Shown piece after piece: positions 15,156 through 22,661 of a stretch of 64,000 bases of DNA. The stretch covers positions 44,782 through 108,781 of the forward strand of contig JAFTDE010000033.1 of NCBI GenBank assembly GCA_017454335.1, written 5' to 3'. The first letter of the stretch is position 1. Each line of letters begins with the position of its first letter. The notes beneath the pieces were generated by a model. It had not been told where the DNA came from, did no database searches, and saw only the letters and a program-made list of their open reading frames with translations. This DNA is from Bacteroidales bacterium. GTDB taxonomy: Bacteria > Bacteroidota > Bacteroidia > Bacteroidales > UBA932. Position numbers and translations under genes: made by a program.

Positions 15156-15163
15156 TATCTTTG
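15156..15163 (+). promoter_or_regulatory. -7 box (TATCTTTG) for tRNA-Gly
   Basis: An exact TAnnTTTG match ends 9 bases before the first base of tRNA-Gly. No other promoter is visible before the beta-galactosidase gene that follows the tRNA. Confidence 0.65.
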
Positions 15164-15172
15164 TGAACAATT

Positions 15173-15246
15173 GCAGGATTAGCACATCGGTAGTGCATTG
15201 GCTTCCCAAGCCAAGGAGGAGGGTTCGACTCCCTTATCCTGCTCCA
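15173..15246 (+). tRNA. tRNA-Gly (anticodon CCC)
   Basis: The 74-base cloverleaf includes an encoded CCA. The acceptor GCAGGAT pairs with ATCCTGC; the D stem is GCAC/GTGC. The anticodon stem TTGGC/GCCAA encloses loop TTCCCAA, giving anticodon CCC, and the T arm is AGGG/CCCT around TTCGACT. Discriminator is T. Confidence 0.95.
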
Positions 15247-15264
15247 TTTTTATTTATACCCCCG

Positions 15265-17682
15265 ATGAAACGAGTCATTTTCTTTCTGGCTGCCGTCGTA
15301 CTGCTGACAGGCTGCCGTGCGGACATTTCCCCGCGCTGTGTCCAGGACTTCAATTTCGACTGGTACTTCGCCCTGGGCGACAGCCCCGAGTTTGCCGAAG
15401 CGGCCGAGCCCATGGAGGCTCCGGCCTGGTCACGGGCCGACTTCGACGACAGCGCCTGGCGTCCCCTGCACCTGCCGCACGACTGGGCCGTCGAGGGGGA
15501 ATTCTCCGCCACGAATCCGTCGGGACCCGGCAGCGGCGCCCTCCCGGGCGGCATCGGATGGTACCGCAAACGCTTCGTCACCCCGAAAGGGGACCTTCAC
15601 TCCATCGAATTCGACGGGGTGTTCATGAACAGCACGGTTTACCTCAACGGCCACGCCCTGGGCACCCGCCCGTACGGGTACAGCTCGTTCAGCTATGACC
15701 TCACACCTTACCTGCGTCCGGTCGGGGAAGAGAACATCATCGCCGTCCGCTGTGACAACGCGGACCAGCCCAACTCCCGCTGGTACGCCGGCTGCGGCAT
15801 CTACCGCGATGTGCGCCTGGTCAGCACGGCCTCCTCGCGCGTCGCCTACAACGGCGTCTTCCTGAAGACCCGGGACAACCAGGTGGATGTCAGCGTGACC
15901 CTGGAAGGGGAAGCGGTCGACCTTGTCCGCTTCGAAATCCTGGACCCGCAGGGCAACTGCATCAGCGAAACCACGACGAAAACGCCCAGCCTGCGCTGCA
16001 CCGCCACGGTGGATGCACCCAACCCGCGCAACTGGGACATCGACGACCCGGCCCTGCACACCCTGGTGGTCAGCCTGATCAGGAATGACCGGGTCATCGA
16101 CCGCTACGAACAGCGTTTCGGCTTCCGCACGATGGCCTGGGACAAGGACACGGGCTTCTACCTCAACGGGCGGAACGTCAAACTGTTGGGCGTCTGCCTG
16201 CACCACGACATGGGCTGCCTGGGCAGCGCCGTACACCGCCGCGCGCTGGAGCGTGAACTGACCATCCTCAAGGAGATGGGCGTCAACGCCGTGCGCTCCT
16301 CGCACAATCCCCCGGCACCCCAGCTGCTGGAACTCTGCGACGAGATGGGCCTGATGGTCATGGACGAGGCCTTCGACATGTGGCGCCGGAGAAAGACGCG
16401 TTTCGACTACTCCCGCTTCTTCGACGAGTGGAGCGACCGCGACCTGACCGATTTCATCATCCGGGACCGCAACCACCCCAGCATCATACTCTGGAGCATC
16501 GGGAACGAAATTCCCGAGCAGACCGGCCGCACCCCGGAAGAGATCGAGGCGAACATGGAGACCGCCCGGCACCTCGCCGACCTGGTGAACAGCCTGGACG
16601 GCACGCGCCTGGTGACCTCGGGCTGCGACCACGTGAACAGTACGAACAACATCCTGCGCAGCGGTGCCGTGGACATCGTCGGCCTGAACTACCGGCACTT
16701 CCTCTACGATTCCGTACGCGTCTGGTATGCCGACATGCCCATCATCGGGTCCGAAACCGTTTCGTCGCTGAACAGCCGCGGCGTCTACAAACAGCCCTCC
16801 ACCCGCATCGAGACCTACGGATGGCCGCGCGAGCAGCTCTCCCCGGACTCCCCCTTCTATCACCAGTGCACCGCCTACGACGCCTCGCACGCCTCCTGGT
16901 CCGCCCTGCACGAGGAAGCCTGGATCGCCGTGCGCGACCGCGACTGGGTGGGCGGCACCTTCATGTGGACCGGCTTCGACTACCTGGGCGAACCGACGCC
17001 GTACGGCTGGCCGTCGCGCAGTTCGTATTTCGGCATCGTGGACCTGGCCGGCTTCCCCAAGGATCCCTACTGGCTGTACCGCAGCGAATGGACGGACGAA
17101 ACGACCCTGCACCTGTTCCCGCACTGGAACTGGGCGCCGGGCGACAGCATCGACCTCTGGGCCTACTACAACAACGCGGACGAGGTTGAACTGCTGGTCA
17201 ACGGGAAGTCCCTGGGACGCAAGGCCAAGACGGACAGCTGCCTGCACGTCATCTGGCCGCAGGTTCCCTTCGAGCCCGGCCGGATCGAGGCCGTTTCCTA
17301 CAAGGACGGCCGCCGCGTCGCCTCCGAGGTCCACGAGACCACCGGACCCGCCGTCAAGCTGCGCCTGACCCCGGACCGCAGCACCATCGCCGCGGACGGC
17401 TATGACCTCAGCTACGTCACCGTCGAGGCGCTCGACGCCCAGGGCCGCGTGGTGCCCGATGCCGGCACCATGCTGGAATTCCGCGTGAAGGGCAAGGGCG
17501 AACTGGCCGGCATCGACAACGGCAACGCCGCCGACACGCTCTCGCTCAAGGGCACGCGGAAAGCCATGTTCAACGGCAAGGCCCTGGCGGTCGTGCGCTC
17601 GCTCAAGGACGAAAAAGGCGCCGCGACCCTGACGGTCAGCAGCGCCCTCGGCGAAACATCGGTGCAGATCCGCACCCGTTAG
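15265..17682 (+). CDS. GH2 beta-galactosidase-like lipoprotein
   Basis: The 805-residue protein starts with a lipoprotein signal peptide (LLTGC, lipid Cys17). A jelly-roll sugar-binding domain (about 30-190), an Ig-like domain and a TIM barrel follow, with Glu415 in WSIGNEIPE as likely acid/base and Glu497 in PIIGSETVSS as likely nucleophile. The tail (about 570-805) holds Ig-like modules including DUF4982-type sequence. GH2 enzymes remove beta-galactose or related sugars; the exact substrate is open. The start lies only 18 bases after tRNA-Gly with no promoter between. The stop overlaps the convergent plsX stop. Confidence 0.88.
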   Translation: MKRVIFFLAAVVLLTGCRADISPRCVQDFNFDWYFALGDSPEFAEAAEPMEAPAWSRADFDDSAWRPLHLPHDWAVEGEFSATNPSGPGSGALPGGIGWYRKRFVTPKGDLHSIEFDGVFMNSTVYLNGHALGTRPYGYSSFSYDLTPYLRPVGEENIIAVRCDNADQPNSRWYAGCGIYRDVRLVSTASSRVAYNGVFLKTRDNQVDVSVTLEGEAVDLVRFEILDPQGNCISETTTKTPSLRCTATVDAPNPRNWDIDDPALHTLVVSLIRNDRVIDRYEQRFGFRTMAWDKDTGFYLNGRNVKLLGVCLHHDMGCLGSAVHRRALERELTILKEMGVNAVRSSHNPPAPQLLELCDEMGLMVMDEAFDMWRRRKTRFDYSRFFDEWSDRDLTDFIIRDRNHPSIILWSIGNEIPEQTGRTPEEIEANMETARHLADLVNSLDGTRLVTSGCDHVNSTNNILRSGAVDIVGLNYRHFLYDSVRVWYADMPIIGSETVSSLNSRGVYKQPSTRIETYGWPREQLSPDSPFYHQCTAYDASHASWSALHEEAWIAVRDRDWVGGTFMWTGFDYLGEPTPYGWPSRSSYFGIVDLAGFPKDPYWLYRSEWTDETTLHLFPHWNWAPGDSIDLWAYYNNADEVELLVNGKSLGRKAKTDSCLHVIWPQVPFEPGRIEAVSYKDGRRVASEVHETTGPAVKLRLTPDRSTIAADGYDLSYVTVEALDAQGRVVPDAGTMLEFRVKGKGELAGIDNGNAADTLSLKGTRKAMFNGKALAVVRSLKDEKGAATLTVSSALGETSVQIRTR

Positions 17683-18698
17683 GCTTCGTAATGCTCATAC
17701 GGCGCCAGACCGGCCTCAATCTTGGGGCCGAGGCCGCTGATTTCCATCTTGTAAGCCTGCTCGATGCACTTTTCCACGGCAACGGCCTTGCTGCTGCCGT
17801 GTCCCTTGACGATGACTTTCGACGTTCCGAGCAGCACGCTGCCGCCGTAGTTCTGGTAGTTCATGAATTCCTTTTCCTCCATGAACATCCGCTTCATCAG
17901 CAGGGCGCCCAGCTTGTAGATCCAGCGGGAATAGATGTCCTTCTTCAGCTTTTTCAGCAGTTCCAGCGCCGTCCCTTCCGTGGTCTTGGTCAGGACATTG
18001 CCGCTGAACCCGTCGCACACGACCACATCGTAGCTGCCGGACAGCAGGTCGCGGCTCTCCATGTTCCCGACAAAGTTCAGCTCCGCGGTCTCCCCCAGCA
18101 GGGCGTAGGCTTCGCGGCGGACGTCGTCCCCCTTCTCCGCCTCCTTTCCCACATTCAGCAGGGCCGTGCGCGGATGCGCCACACCATAGACATTCTCCAG
18201 GTACAGCGAGGACATGATCGCGAACTGGCGCAGCATTGCCGCGTCCACTTCGACGTTGGCACCGCTGTCGCAGATGCCGACGATCCCGCCCGACATGGTG
18301 GGCAGCAGGGGGCAGAAAGCCGGCCGGATCACGCCCCGGAGGCGTCCGATGCGGACCAGCGCGCCGGTCACCAGGGCCCCGGTGGATCCGGTGCTGACCA
18401 TGCCGGCGATATCGTCCCGGTCGCGCAGCAGCATGATGGCCTTCATCATCGAGGAGTCCCGTTTCAGCCGGATGGCGTCGGTGGGCTTCTCGTCACAGCC
18501 GATCACCTGCGGCGCATGGATGATTTCCAGCCGGGCCGCGTCGTAATCGCGCCCCTGCAGGCAGGAGCGGAGCTGCGTCTCGTCCCCGGTCAGGATGAGA
18601 TACAGGTCCGGAATGAGGGCCAGGGCACGCAGGCCGCCCTCCACATGGGCCTGGGGACTGTGGTCCCCGCCGAAGCAGTCCAGGATGATCTTGACCAT
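17679..18698 (-). CDS. plsX: Phosphate acyltransferase PlsX
   Basis: This 339-residue protein opens with IILDCFGGDHSPQAHVEGGL and has the family segments DSGANVEVD and VVCDGFSGNVLTKTTEG. PlsX interconverts acyl-ACP and acyl-phosphate, feeding PlsY or, in reverse, loading salvaged acyl groups onto ACP. It is the last gene of the fakA-fakB-acyltransferase-acpP-plsX run and overlaps acpP by one base. The usual partners rpmF and fabH are not adjacent here. Confidence 0.95.
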   Translation of the reverse strand: MVKIILDCFGGDHSPQAHVEGGLRALALIPDLYLILTGDETQLRSCLQGRDYDAARLEIIHAPQVIGCDEKPTDAIRLKRDSSMMKAIMLLRDRDDIAGMVSTGSTGALVTGALVRIGRLRGVIRPAFCPLLPTMSGGIVGICDSGANVEVDAAMLRQFAIMSSLYLENVYGVAHPRTALLNVGKEAEKGDDVRREAYALLGETAELNFVGNMESRDLLSGSYDVVVCDGFSGNVLTKTTEGTALELLKKLKKDIYSRWIYKLGALLMKRMFMEEKEFMNYQNYGGSVLLGTSKVIVKGHGSSKAVAVEKCIEQAYKMEISGLGPKIEAGLAPYEHYEA

Positions 18699-18934
18699 TA
18701 CTTCTTCTGTTGGGCGTTCAGATAGTTCACGACGTCGCCCACCGTCACGAAGGTGGCGAGTTCTTCATCGGGGATGACGATGCCGTAGTCGTCTTCGATA
18801 CGCATCAGCAGCTGGAGGATGTCCAGCGAATCGGCGCCCAGTTTCTTGATCTGGGATTCGAGCGTAACCGTCGCGGGATCCGCGATCCGCAGTTGTTTGG
18901 CCAGAATTTTCTGGACCTCGGGAAACATATCCAT
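18698..18934 (-). CDS. acpP: Acyl carrier protein
   Basis: This acidic 78-residue protein has the phosphopantetheine attachment motif GADSLD, with Ser36 as the modified residue, and the family's IPDEE helix III. The start chosen is the ATG at 18934, just after the upstream stop; 18928 is an alternative and longer starts would run into the upstream gene. Its position between an acyltransferase and plsX suggests it may serve this operon; whether it is the only ACP of the cell cannot be told from this window. Confidence 0.92.
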   Translation of the reverse strand: MDMFPEVQKILAKQLRIADPATVTLESQIKKLGADSLDILQLLMRIEDDYGIVIPDEELATFVTVGDVVNYLNAQQKK

Positions 18935-18938
18935 ATTC

Positions 18939-20066
18939 CTAAGCAAGTTTTTTGACATAAGCACGGCGGCGTTTGTGGTCTTCGCGGCCAAAACGGCGCC
19001 AGAGATTCTGTATCGCGTAATTGTCTTCGATATTCAGGTTGGTCTCCGCATAGCGGATGCCGCTCTGGCCGAGCATCTTGCCCAGTTCGGCGGCCACCAT
19101 CACGCTGACGCCGCGGTTCAGCCACTCGGGATCGACGCCGATCAAGCCCAGATCGATCACTTCCGGCCGGTATTTGGCCCGGAGCAGGTCCCAGAGGAAA
19201 CGCGGCGTGATCCGGCCGCGGGAGCGGCGCACCGCCTGGGCGAGGCTGGGCAGGCATACGCCCAGCAGGACAACCTTGTCATTCTCGTCCAGCACGACGG
19301 CGACATACTTCAGGCTGATGATCATCTTGAAATTGTCGATCATCAGCTTCTTCATCCCGGGTGTGAACGGAACGGTCCCGTACAGCTGGTCATAGGACTT
19401 GTCCAGGATTTCGAACAGGCCGTCGGCGTAGCGGTTCAGGAAGTCGCTCACGTTCCGGGCCGGGCCGATCTTGAGGTGGTAACGGCGCATCACGAAATCC
19501 GCCATCTTCTGCATCTCGGCCTGGTCCTCGGGGGTCGGAGCCGTTATCTTGCTCTCCGTCCAGTCCACTTCCTTGACATAGCCCAGGCGCTCGATGTACT
19601 CGGGATACCAGGGACCGTTATACTGCTCTTCAAAGGTGCTCAGCTGGTCAAAACCTTCGACCAGCAGCCCTTCACGCTCGAGGTCGGAGAACCCGAGCGG
19701 TCCGCATACCGTGTCCATTCCGCGCGAGACGGCCCAGCTTTCAACGGCCGCGAAAAGGGCTTTCGCGACTTCGAAGTCCCGGATACAGTCGAAACGGGTG
19801 AAACGGACCCGTTTCTCGCCCCGTTTCTCGTTACTGGCCCGCTGGATGATGCCCGAGATGCGCCCGACCATTTCCCCGTCGCGGTACGCATTGTAATACA
19901 CGGTCTCGCAACAATCGTTGTAGACATAATCCTTGCGGAAAATCTTCCGCTCATCCATGCGGAGGGGCGGAACATAACAGGGATTGTCCTTGTACAGACG
20001 GTCGGGGAAACGGAGGAAGTCATGCCGTTCGCGGCAGCTGCGGACCTCCCTGATCTCTATTTCCAT
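18939..20066 (-). CDS. GNAT-fold acyltransferase-like protein
   Basis: The protein has about 375 residues from the MEIEIREVRSC start. It has no signal peptide. The conserved stretch GPLGFSDLEREGLLVEGFD near residue 115, the NGPWYPEYIERLGY segment and the C-terminal NIEDNYAIQNLWRRFGRE place it in a large family of GNAT-related proteins of unclear function. It overlaps the DegV gene by 10 bases and directly precedes acpP, so an acyl-ACP or acyl-CoA donor is plausible, but that is inference. Confidence 0.65.
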   Translation of the reverse strand: MEIEIREVRSCRERHDFLRFPDRLYKDNPCYVPPLRMDERKIFRKDYVYNDCCETVYYNAYRDGEMVGRISGIIQRASNEKRGEKRVRFTRFDCIRDFEVAKALFAAVESWAVSRGMDTVCGPLGFSDLEREGLLVEGFDQLSTFEEQYNGPWYPEYIERLGYVKEVDWTESKITAPTPEDQAEMQKMADFVMRRYHLKIGPARNVSDFLNRYADGLFEILDKSYDQLYGTVPFTPGMKKLMIDNFKMIISLKYVAVVLDENDKVVLLGVCLPSLAQAVRRSRGRITPRFLWDLLRAKYRPEVIDLGLIGVDPEWLNRGVSVMVAAELGKMLGQSGIRYAETNLNIEDNYAIQNLWRRFGREDHKRRRAYVKKLA

Positions 20067-20932
20067 CGGTTCCTGGCATAAAAGGCAATACCGACGCCGT
20101 TCGGGCCGCAGTGGCTGCCGGCGGTCGGATTGGTCGTCACACATTCGATCTGCAGGTCCTCGCCGAAACGCTGGTGCAGCATCTGCGACAGCTGTTCGAC
20201 CAGGGCGGGGGCATCCGTATGACCGATGATGAAACGGTGTTTCTTGATGTCCAGACCGGTCTGCTCGACGTACTGGACCAGACGTTCCATCACCTGGGTG
20301 CGGCCCTTGACCGTCCCGATGCTCTCCATCTTGCCCTCGGTGCTCATGTGGATGACCGGACGCAGTCCGATCAGGCCGCCCATCGTCGCGGCGAGTCCGC
20401 TGACACGGCCGCTGTGGCGCATGAACTTCAGGTCATCGGCGAAGAAATACTGGACATAATGGTCCACCTCTTTCTTTCCCCATTCGACCGCCTCTTCCGC
20501 CGTCATGCCCTTGTTCAGCAGGTCGCCCAGTTCGCGGGCCATCAGGTAGCTCACGATGGTGATGCCCTTGGTATCCACTTCGTAGAACTTGCGGCCGGGA
20601 TACTTCTGCAGCAGGGCGGCCACGGCCTTGTCCATGGTATCGAAGGTCATCGACATGGCCCGGCTGAAATGGATGTACAGGATGTCGTTGCCCGCGGCGA
20701 ACTCCGGTTCGAAGTAGGCCGTGTATTTCTCTTCGCTGATCGCGCTGGTGGTCGGCACGACGCCGCCGCGCAGCATCTCGTAGAAGGAATGCGGGTCAAA
20801 GGTGGTGAAATCCTCGTAAGGATAGATGGTCTTGCCGTCGATACTGTACGGCATGCTGACCAGTTTGTAACCGTACTCGGCTGCAACCTCCAGGTTGAAG
20901 TCGGAGTCCGTATCGACAAATTTCGTTAACAT
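20057..20932 (-). CDS. DegV-family fatty-acid-binding protein (FakB-like)
   Basis: This 291-residue protein has the DegV landmarks TTSAISEEKY (N-terminal phosphate/fatty acid site), FYEVDTKGITI, RHSGRVSGLAATMGGLIGLRPVI and a C-terminal GPNGVGIAFYAR. DegV/FakB proteins hold a fatty acid and present it to the kinase FakA. It overlaps fakA by 7 bases, so a dedicated FakA-FakB pair is the natural reading. Chain-length preference cannot be inferred. Confidence 0.9.
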   Translation of the reverse strand: MLTKFVDTDSDFNLEVAAEYGYKLVSMPYSIDGKTIYPYEDFTTFDPHSFYEMLRGGVVPTTSAISEEKYTAYFEPEFAAGNDILYIHFSRAMSMTFDTMDKAVAALLQKYPGRKFYEVDTKGITIVSYLMARELGDLLNKGMTAEEAVEWGKKEVDHYVQYFFADDLKFMRHSGRVSGLAATMGGLIGLRPVIHMSTEGKMESIGTVKGRTQVMERLVQYVEQTGLDIKKHRFIIGHTDAPALVEQLSQMLHQRFGEDLQIECVTTNPTAGSHCGPNGVGIAFYARNRWK

Positions 20933-22587
20933 AGCACAATGATATAGTCGTACACCGGCTGCGCTCCGTCAGTCGGAATGATTTCAGTTCTCGGGTAATC
21001 CGCCTGCAGCCGCTCCACCAGGGCCTGGGCCTGATCCGAAGGCGTATCCTGACCCCACAGGACCAGGGCGACGTCATGGCCGGCCAGGTCCAGCTGCGCG
21101 GCCGCCAGTCGTGCCGCTTCGTTCCGGTCCGGGTCGGCGGACAGGATCCGTCCGTGGACGAATCCGATATAATCCCCCTCGTGCACCGTCACGCCGTCCT
21201 GCTGCGTATCCCGGATGGCCCGGGAAACCAGGCAGGTCTGGACCGAATCCATCGTTTCCTGCACGGAAGCGACCAGTTCGTCAGTATCGTGGCAGTCCCG
21301 GTCCAGCGAAGCCGCGGCGACATATCCTTCGCCGATGGATTTGCTCGGGAGGACCACCACACGGGCTTTCCGGTACAGCTCGGCCGCCTGCCGGGCGGCC
21401 AGGATGATATTGGAATTGTTCGGGAACACCAGGATGGTCTCGGCGTCGATGCGGTCGAAGGCCTCCAGGAAGTCCTGGGCGCTCGGATTCATCGTCTGCC
21501 CACCGGCGATCACTTCCTCGACGCCGGCGTCCTTGAACATCTGCACCACGCCCGCACCGGAGGCCACCGCGACGATACCGTAACGGAGGCGGTGGCGTAC
21601 ATAGTCCGCCTGCTGCGGCGCCTGGGAGAAATGGTCCTGGATGGTCACTTCGCTGTGCTGCAGCGTCATGTTCTCGATCTTGACGGTCAGGAATTCGCCC
21701 CAGCGCTGGACATGCGAGAGGATTTCGCCCGGCGTGTGCGTATGGACATGGGCCTTGACGATGCTGCCGTCCCGGAAACAGACGACCGAATCCCCGGCTC
21801 CGTCCAGGTAGTCCTTGATGACGGATGCGTCGAAGGCGTCCACGGGACCGACCTTGGCCGTCTGCAGGCGCAGCAGGAATTCCGTGCAATAGCCGAATTC
21901 CAGCACCGAATCCGGGCCGAAATCATCCAGCCGGACGGCGGGCTTCCCCGCAGGATCCGCAGCGGAACGGGATTCGCTGATCCGGCCGCACAGCGCGTCG
22001 TGCATGCCGTCCACGATGCACAGCAGCCCGGCGCCGCCGCTGTCCACGACCCCGGCGTCCTTCAGAACGGGCAGCAACTCCGGCGTATGGGCCAGCGATG
22101 CGCGCATCGCTTCCATCAGGGCGGCGAACCACTGCTCCAGATCCGGGACGCCCTCGGCGGGAACCCCTTCCACGCCCTCCCGCAATACGGTCAGGATGGT
22201 CCCCTCGACGGGGTTGCTGACGGCATGGTACGCGGACTCGACACCGCTTTTCATCGCAGCGGCGAACTGTTTCACATCGGCCTGGTCCAGCCCGGACAGT
22301 CCTTCGGAAATACCGGCGAAGATACGGGAAAGGATCACCCCGGAATTGCCCCGGGCACCCAGCAGCATCCCATGCGAGAGCGATGCCGCCACTTCAGACA
22401 AGGACGCATCGGCGGCTGCTTCGCGCACACCGGCATCGAGCGTCATATACATGTTGTCCCCCGTGTCACCGTCGGGGACGGGAAATACGTTTAGGTCATT
22501 GACCGCCTGCCGGTTCCCGTCGAGCTTGACCGCCCCTTGCGAGACCATGGCAGAGAACAGCTTTCCGGTCAAGGTTTCAGTAATCAT
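20926..22587 (-). CDS. fakA: Fatty acid kinase FakA (DhaL/DAK2-domain protein)
   Basis: The 553-residue protein has an N-terminal DhaL domain with the ATP/Mg loop NVFPVPDGDTGDNMYMTL (Asp39, Asp41, Asp44), a middle linking domain, and a C-terminal DegV-like domain rich in YRKARVVVLPSKSIGEG-type sequence. FakA phosphorylates the fatty acid bound to FakB, yielding acyl-phosphate. It is the first gene of the five-gene minus-strand operon. A -7 box lies only 4 bases upstream of the ATG. Confidence 0.9.
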   Translation of the reverse strand: MITETLTGKLFSAMVSQGAVKLDGNRQAVNDLNVFPVPDGDTGDNMYMTLDAGVREAAADASLSEVAASLSHGMLLGARGNSGVILSRIFAGISEGLSGLDQADVKQFAAAMKSGVESAYHAVSNPVEGTILTVLREGVEGVPAEGVPDLEQWFAALMEAMRASLAHTPELLPVLKDAGVVDSGGAGLLCIVDGMHDALCGRISESRSAADPAGKPAVRLDDFGPDSVLEFGYCTEFLLRLQTAKVGPVDAFDASVIKDYLDGAGDSVVCFRDGSIVKAHVHTHTPGEILSHVQRWGEFLTVKIENMTLQHSEVTIQDHFSQAPQQADYVRHRLRYGIVAVASGAGVVQMFKDAGVEEVIAGGQTMNPSAQDFLEAFDRIDAETILVFPNNSNIILAARQAAELYRKARVVVLPSKSIGEGYVAAASLDRDCHDTDELVASVQETMDSVQTCLVSRAIRDTQQDGVTVHEGDYIGFVHGRILSADPDRNEAARLAAAQLDLAGHDVALVLWGQDTPSDQAQALVERLQADYPRTEIIPTDGAQPVYDYIIVLC

Positions 22588-22601: not shown

Positions 22602-22640
22602 CAAAAAAAACAAAAGCCGGCGGAAATCATCCCGCCGGCC
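22602..22640 (-). terminator. Rho-independent terminator after xylA
   Basis: On the minus strand GCCGGCGG (22639-22632 complement) and its partner at 22616-22623 form an 8-bp GC stem with an 8-base loop, followed by TTTTGTTTTTTTT. It closes the xylB-xylA operon just before the fakA promoter. Confidence 0.85.
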
Positions 22641-22661
22641 TGATAAGCAACGCTTTCTGTC

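Follow-up and report, generated by a model that had tools for sequence, protein, structure and literature searches.

FakAB is assigned to Gram-positive pathogens and FadD or Aas to Gram-negative bacteria in the accessible part of PMC11271967, where two Aas isoforms of Alistipes finegoldii are also cited. According to the accessible part of PMC9304779, coenzyme A thioesters take no part in the lipid metabolism of A. finegoldii, and B. subtilis FakAB is used in that of PMC13400652 to make acyl-phosphate for PlsY. No GNAT-type ceramide synthase appears in the accessible parts of PMC10865984 or PMC9278070, and among openly licensed literature no publication was found on the operon described here, or pairing FakB/DegV with GNAT, rumen or gene neighbourhood. 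This operon lies in a stretch of 64,000 nucleotides from a Bacteroidales bacterium (contig JAFTDE010000033.1, positions 44,782 to 108,781), the whole of which is called the window and which sits on contig C18 of a 2.16 Mb source assembly, 78.8 % complete and in 63 contigs. It encodes FakA, FakB, a GNAT-like protein, an acyl carrier protein (ACP) and PlsX, and on balance we favour reading it as a fatty-acid activation operon with a dedicated user enzyme. Its genes are:

20926-22587, minus strand: fakA, fatty acid kinase catalytic subunit (DhaL/Dak2, middle and C-terminal domains), 553 amino acids
20057-20932, minus strand: fakB, DegV-family fatty acid-binding subunit, 291 amino acids
18939-20066, minus strand: gene for a GNAT-like acyltransferase with a tandem GNAT fold, without a curated family, 375 amino acids
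18698-18934, minus strand: acp, operon acyl carrier protein with a GADSL site, 78 amino acids
17679-18698, minus strand: plsX, acyl-phosphate:ACP acyltransferase of an operon-specific clade, 339 amino acids

The five overlapping or nearly abutting minus-strand genes of the original prediction were all recovered in place, with overlaps of 7 nucleotides for fakA/fakB, 10 for fakB/GNAT and 1 for acp/plsX, and a gap of 4 nucleotides between the GNAT gene and acp. The mechanical open reading frame of the GNAT gene opens at 20144, and its likely start is the ATG at 20066.

The GNAT gene, not plsX or acp, is the steadiest third member beside fakA and fakB, even where plsX and acp are missing, a point that the original prediction had overlooked. 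Thirteen FakB queries run against the named genome collection gave 227 relatives, the best 80 of which were kept as loci and assigned by their NCBI titles, which are submitters' labels for bins that may be contaminated, to Bacteroidota (52), Bacillota (27) or no phylum (one). These 80 FakB proteins are 59-82 % identical to the query across the two phyla. The GNAT gene is present in 76 of the 80 loci (49/52 Bacteroidota, 26/27 Bacillota and the unplaced one), operon-type PlsX in 50/52, 11/27 and 1/1, and ACP in 49/52, 4/27 and 1/1, respectively. Fifteen Bacillota loci, among them L159, which is cut by a contig edge, keep GNAT without a neighbouring plsX, and PlsX above cut-off occurs elsewhere in the genome for all ten that were searched. 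The loci without GNAT are L116 (2.5 kb visible past fakB), L149, L161 (8 kb visible) and L178 (3.1 kb visible), and L149 carries a PF01553 acyltransferase and a divergent PlsX like the genus genome G034 described below. That the operon is unique to the source genome by chance was rejected, the whole or partial set being found in 80 further loci.

Among 37 genomes of the genus, the source genome included, DegV was found in 13, and PlsX above cut-off occurs in those same 13 and solely together with FakB. Nine of them (G003, G005, G006, G019, G022, G023, G027, G028 and G036) have the order fakA-fakB-GNAT-plsX-acp, and in the window acp stands ahead of plsX. Where both genes are seen, plsX-acp is the order in 53 of 54 loci and acp-plsX is shared by L108 alone, the nearest relative of the window. 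The set whose conservation in Bacteroidota had been put forward as a check thus recurs there, complete or in part, in 52 loci, but the order fakA-degV-GNAT-acpP-plsX named for that check is exceptional. In G004, fakA-fakB-GNAT is followed two genes further by a divergent plsX-acp-PF01553 set, which in G034 comes directly after fakB with no GNAT gene; G039, from another family, has fakB-PF01553 acyltransferase-plsX-acp on a contig that starts inside fakB. A PF01553 acyltransferase is accordingly present in both G034 and G039, where GNAT is missing. In the variant operons L085:1903-4488, L084:1314-3840, L097:5062-7591 and L093:744-3364, such a protein of about 440-458 amino acids replaces or joins the GNAT, and the PF01553 variants of G004, G011 and G034 carry a very divergent PlsX.

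FakA has the Dak2, FakA-like_M and FakA-like_C domains (Pfam PF02734, PF21645 and PF13684), all above cut-off, scores 525.8 bits against TIGR03599 (cut-off 396.1) and finds its closest PDB match in 7w7h_A over residues 6-550; its PDGDTGDN motif (38-45), C234, H280 and H282 are invariant across 12 genus sequences. FakB is a DegV protein (PF02645, 161 bits; TIGR00762, 174.6 bits, cut-off 99.7) with which solved FakB1/DegV proteins align, and PTTS (60-63), S90 and H274, which we take to be carboxylate-binding, are invariant across 13 genus sequences. The FakB of G011 (L092:9764-10585) is missing a segment around residue 43 and diverges past about residue 255 of the alignment, in the manner of a frame shift or rearrangement.

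The expectation that the operon has its own ACP was borne out by PF00550 (51.4 bits, cut-off 20.8) and TIGR00517 (70.6 bits, just over its cut-off of 70.45). A second acpP near fabF, which had been proposed as a check, was not seen there; a second and higher-scoring ACP exists on another contig, not adjoining fabF. PlsX scores 305.7 bits against PF02504 and 320.8 bits against TIGR00182 (cut-off 243.4). PlsY (PF02660) was found in 0/37 genus genomes, an absence that rests on the 37 together because the drafts are incomplete; the same search on other genomes of the order found it in 14/24, and the control set was positive in 8/14. The PlsX of the genus therefore seems not to serve the PlsX/PlsY step. 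The role that remains for PlsX is the interchange of acyl-phosphate and acyl-ACP, and the operon enzyme likely works from acyl-phosphate to acyl-ACP, with FakAB as the evident acyl-phosphate source. A tree was built from the window PlsX and 24 of 62 operon PlsX, 12 PlsX from other Bacteroidales, 13 further PlsX from the Clostridia side and three divergent ones (G004, G011, G034). In this tree the sampled operon PlsX, whether from Bacteroidota or Bacillota, fall into a single group apart from other PlsX, with a support of 100 in the Shimodaira-Hasegawa-like approximate likelihood ratio test (SH-aLRT), although the program gave a warning about long branches coming together, and the 13 Clostridia-side PlsX were grouped with a support of only 70. 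A housekeeping PlsX copy was rejected as an explanation because the 37 genus genomes showed no PlsY and because of this separate grouping.

No Pfam or NCBIfam family matches the GNAT-like protein at E ≤ 0.001. The AlphaFold model of the protein, built with 48 sequences, shows a tandem GNAT fold with a predicted local distance difference test score (pLDDT) of 90.4 and a predicted template modelling score (pTM) of 0.88. Foldseek with this model gave 188 matches at E ≤ 0.001, the top ones being tandem GNATs over most of the length with E down to 7e-12, and FemX, Eis2 and N-myristoyltransferase ranked lower. An alignment of the window protein with 47 of the 76 other operon GNATs has 62 invariant columns, and a paralogue in L094 (825-1943) matches PF00583 at 35 bits (cut-off 20.7). 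Some relatives lie in telling places. In G055 (L250:5787-12008), a serine palmitoyltransferase gene (NF047600, 680.6 versus 640 bits) is followed by two tandem GNAT-family genes, and further on by those of an aminotransferase, a CDP-alcohol phosphatidyltransferase and a nucleotidyltransferase, so that this stretch is likely a lipid gene cluster. In the source genome (L094:822-3753, on C18), the paralogue is divergent from an AMP-binding ligase (PF00501) that is followed by an ACP-like gene (20.3 bits versus a cut-off of 20.8), a pair that possibly forms a second route to acyl-ACP. The constancy of GNAT beside FakAB and these lipid and carrier contexts make an acyltransferase acting on the activated chain the best reading of the protein, though they do not prove it.

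The gene families, the conserved operon and the genus-wide lack of PlsY are read directly in the sequences; from them we infer the reactions, the substrate of the GNAT-like protein above all. FakB would present a free fatty acid to FakA, which would use ATP to form acyl-phosphate, and the operon PlsX would pass the acyl group from there to the operon ACP. The GNAT-fold protein may then hand the chain on, more likely from acyl-ACP than from acyl-phosphate, to an acceptor that is probably a lipid precursor with an amine or hydroxyl group. Acyl-ACP may also supply the other acyltransferases of the cell, which would matter in species without FabH. The part of this route that had been predicted, from FakAB over acyl-phosphate and PlsX to acyl-ACP, fits the families, the PlsY count of 0/37 and the coincidence of FakB and PlsX in the same 13 genomes, and is to that extent plausible.

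Several results weigh against an activation operon with a dedicated user enzyme. FakA falls below the FakA_VfrB equivalog model NF038248 (439.7 versus 975 bits) and FakB far under the FakB1 equivalog cut-off of NF038249 (67.9 versus 350 bits), so ligand and partner could differ; since the models are equivalogs, the shortfall lowers equivalence to the named proteins and not family membership. The listed fold matches of the GNAT model are only 8-15 % identical, and its profile searched against PDB sequences gave chance-level matches (best E 0.13), as did a single-sequence search. The wider GNAT family is common, with matches in 56 of 61 genomes and four copies in the source genome, and most contexts of these relatives had no recognised lipid gene within 1.5-kb flanks (19 loci). 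In G011, no GNAT adjoins fakA-fakB and the divergent plsX-acp-PF01553 set is on another contig. L161, a fakA-fakB-plsX-acp locus with 8 kb visible past fakB, shows no GNAT there and nothing related to the PF01553 gene, so the GNAT is not indispensable.

The operon might instead serve a general salvage that replaces de novo synthesis, mainly supplying acyl-ACP for phospholipid and lipid A in species in which the start of fatty acid synthesis has been lost, with the GNAT as a side enzyme, a reading to which we give roughly one chance in four. In its favour are the FabH counts and the state of a conserved fab locus. FabH, called by a PF08545 match above 70 bits, was found in 1/13 operon-bearing and 13/24 other genus genomes, or in 3/13 versus 13/24 if G005 and G036 are counted as positive, two operon genomes whose PF08545 matches of 25-26 bits over 39 positions are formally above cut-off and were counted as no FabH. 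The genome-wide search, on draft assemblies, covered FabH alone, and fabK and fabZ could lie elsewhere. Relatives have a conserved locus fabH-(fabK)-fabF-fabZ; in L252, FabH (TIGR00747) and FabF (TIGR03150) are above cut-off, with FabK at 424.8 versus 453.1 bits (TIGR03151) and FabZ at 111.2 versus 113 (NF000582). The cluster was read in the operon-free G013, G016, G017, G020, G021, G024, G026, G029, G032 and G033, fabH-fabF-fabZ is present in the operon-bearing G003, and fabK was seen in seven of these eleven genomes, whose regions had to show FabH because the FabH match was known beforehand. At the same locus fabF alone remains in G000, where it passes TIGR03150, G011, G022, G023 and G027, which are five of the six operon carriers read, as well as in the operon-free G008, G009 and G012. 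In G015 the contig ends just before fabF, in G030 (97 % complete) not even fabF is at the locus, in G004 and G014 there was no fabF before the contig end, and in G005, G006, G019, G028, G034 and G036 the place lay outside the fetched regions. In the lineage of the window, the cluster of the relatives is reduced to fabF (source genome, L096:4491-10232 on C12; compare L252-L281). The raw counts are suggestive (two-sided Fisher p = 0.011; p = 0.029 when restricted to the 13 genomes with a completeness of 90 % or more, 1/6 versus 6/7). In a tree built on four proteins of 23 genomes, however, the FabH-less genomes, G014 apart, form a single clade (100/100) of 11 genomes with six carriers and five non-carriers, and independent pairs gave no support for a link (two pairs on starred branches, p = 1). 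The loss is that of a single lineage, and a tie between it and the operon is therefore not claimed. G003, with both the operon and fabH-fabF-fabZ, also speaks against general salvage, which moreover leaves the constancy of the GNAT and the further FakA of Clostridia unexplained.

It is rather unlikely, though the shortfall of FakB against the FakB1 equivalog would fit it, that FakB carries a different kind of carboxylic acid, such as one from the herbivore gut that is short, branched or hydroxylated, and that the pathway acylates a specific product and does not salvage for the membrane. Also in its favour, the 80 FakB proteins keep their 59-82 % identity across two phyla, and the titles of their loci name ruminant samples or catalogues in 57 of 80 cases and horse faeces in three, with 20 other or unstated. 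The conserved positions that are presumably carboxylate-binding, and PDB relatives that are DegV/FakB proteins, argue against such a ligand. We hold it very improbable that the GNAT is a protein or small-molecule acetyltransferase which is merely co-transcribed, for instance as a regulator of the pathway. Glucosamine and histidine acetyltransferases are indeed among its fold neighbours, but a bystander would hardly be expected in 76 of 80 loci of two phyla, with a PF01553 acyltransferase present in two variants that lack it and with relatives that adjoin a serine palmitoyltransferase and an AMP-ligase/ACP-like pair.

Activation with a dedicated user enzyme therefore stays the preferred reading, and its distribution points to a shared history across phyla. 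Trees were made of GNAT (75 rows), FakB (81 rows) and FakA (38 rows: the window, 33 operon FakA and four other FakA). Bacillota rows fall on one side of a branch in the GNAT and FakA trees (support 99), and in the FakB tree the phylum label requires three changes. The set thus has a history common to the two phyla, most simply through horizontal transfer. The direction is conflicting, since the PlsX tree places Bacteroidales within Clostridia and the FakA tree, rooted on the four distant FakA, does the opposite. Neighbouring genes in Clostridia-titled loci were not diagnostic for correct binning. Of 18 Clostridia-side genomes (17 with a Bacillota title and that of L175, without phylum in its title), 15 have two or three FakA above cut-off, versus one in each of six Bacteroidota genomes, a coherent difference that stray Bacteroidales contigs would not explain. 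Eight Clostridia-side genomes (G061-G063, G065, G066, G074, G076 and G077) have three. DegV was found in 24 of 395 genomes drawn across Bacteroidota and is thus uncommon there; the set is to that extent notable in the phylum, as had been suggested, but it is not specific to Bacteroidota, 27 of the 80 loci being titled Bacillota.

An MMPL protein is encoded in 37/52 Bacteroidota and 0/27 Bacillota loci, and in most of the MMPL-bearing Bacteroidota loci whose gene order was read the gene of this transporter type stands immediately before fakA. Many Bacteroidales loci have in addition a LolA gene adjoining the operon (examples of these neighbours are at L085:6888-9365 and L087:6761-7279); both proteins score under the NCBIfam models that they resemble (HpnN and flexirubin LolA2). 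Tentatively, the operon could be a separate lipid pathway fed by FakAB and shared horizontally by herbivore-gut Bacteroidales and Clostridia, in which a new acyl-ACP-dependent tandem-GNAT family makes an acylated lipid that MMPL and LolA export in many Bacteroidales. In the one FabH-less lineage it might then have become one of the chief suppliers of acyl-ACP, and the FabF kept there would extend salvaged chains for 3-hydroxy lipids. This fuller picture, taken as a whole, is clearly less probable than the activation operon itself.

By their family matches, the genes upstream of the operon encode a TIM barrel resembling xylose isomerase, a sugar kinase of the FGGY type and a CstA protein. At the other end of the operon, plsX shares its last 4 nucleotides with a convergent gene of glycoside hydrolase family 2 (15163-17682). 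Between the xylA-like gene and fakA lies one further feature:

22614-22641, minus strand: terminator-like stem of 12 pairs with a T run, a consensus match only

Such stems were found ten times in the scanned stretch versus 3.6 expected from shuffles, which makes a single one weak evidence. The strict form of what we take to be the Bacteroidales promoter pattern had four matches in the window and none upstream of fakA. TATCTTTG at 22599-22592 (minus strand) resembles the presumed Bacteroidales -7 box and ends 4 nucleotides before the fakA ATG; a TTTG box is absent at the spacing tried. A leaderless fakA message is possible.

Among known enzymes, the lipid N-acyltransferases of GNAT type, OlsB and GlsB, and the bacterial ceramide synthase resemble the proposed user enzyme in transferring an acyl group from an acyl thioester to an amine. 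The GNAT-like protein matches no Pfam family and therefore lies outside PF13444 and PF04339, which we take to be the families of OlsB/GlsB and ceramide synthase; the operon GNATs would make up a small acyltransferase family open to direct testing. The Dak2-DegV fusions of other Bacteroidota share related kinase and carrier domains with FakA and FakB, but as single chains of about 600 amino acids (G041, G052, G055), with no relatives of the operon GNAT, plsX or acp in the 11-14 kb around them. Chains matching both FakA and FakB were read in these three genomes of the order (L078, L079, L080), and in 21 of the 24 DegV-bearing Bacteroidota genomes the length of the DegV reading frame alone, about 600 amino acids or more, suggests such fusions. 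With the Aas route of Alistipes finegoldii the operon would share a Bacteroidota path from exogenous fatty acid to acyl-ACP, for which that species uses AMP-forming acyl-ACP synthetases instead of FakAB and PlsX, as far as the accessible parts of the works cited above describe it. If the proposed function is confirmed, Gram-negative gut bacteria would also use a way of capturing fatty acids that is chiefly known from Gram-positives. Should some carriers depend on host or dietary fatty acids, this would bear on how lipids are exchanged in rumen and gut and on the efficacy there of drugs against fatty acid synthesis. The FakAB-PlsX route of Firmicutes such as Staphylococcus and Streptococcus is alike in its three-domain FakA, its DegV-type FakB and a PlsX that links acyl-phosphate and acyl-ACP. 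The set of the window differs in its Gram-negative host, its single operon, its operon-specific PlsX clade and ACP, the lack of any PlsY found in the genus and its near-constant GNAT, and a conserved FakAB-PlsX-ACP set of this kind would isolate the acyl-phosphate to acyl-ACP direction of PlsX.

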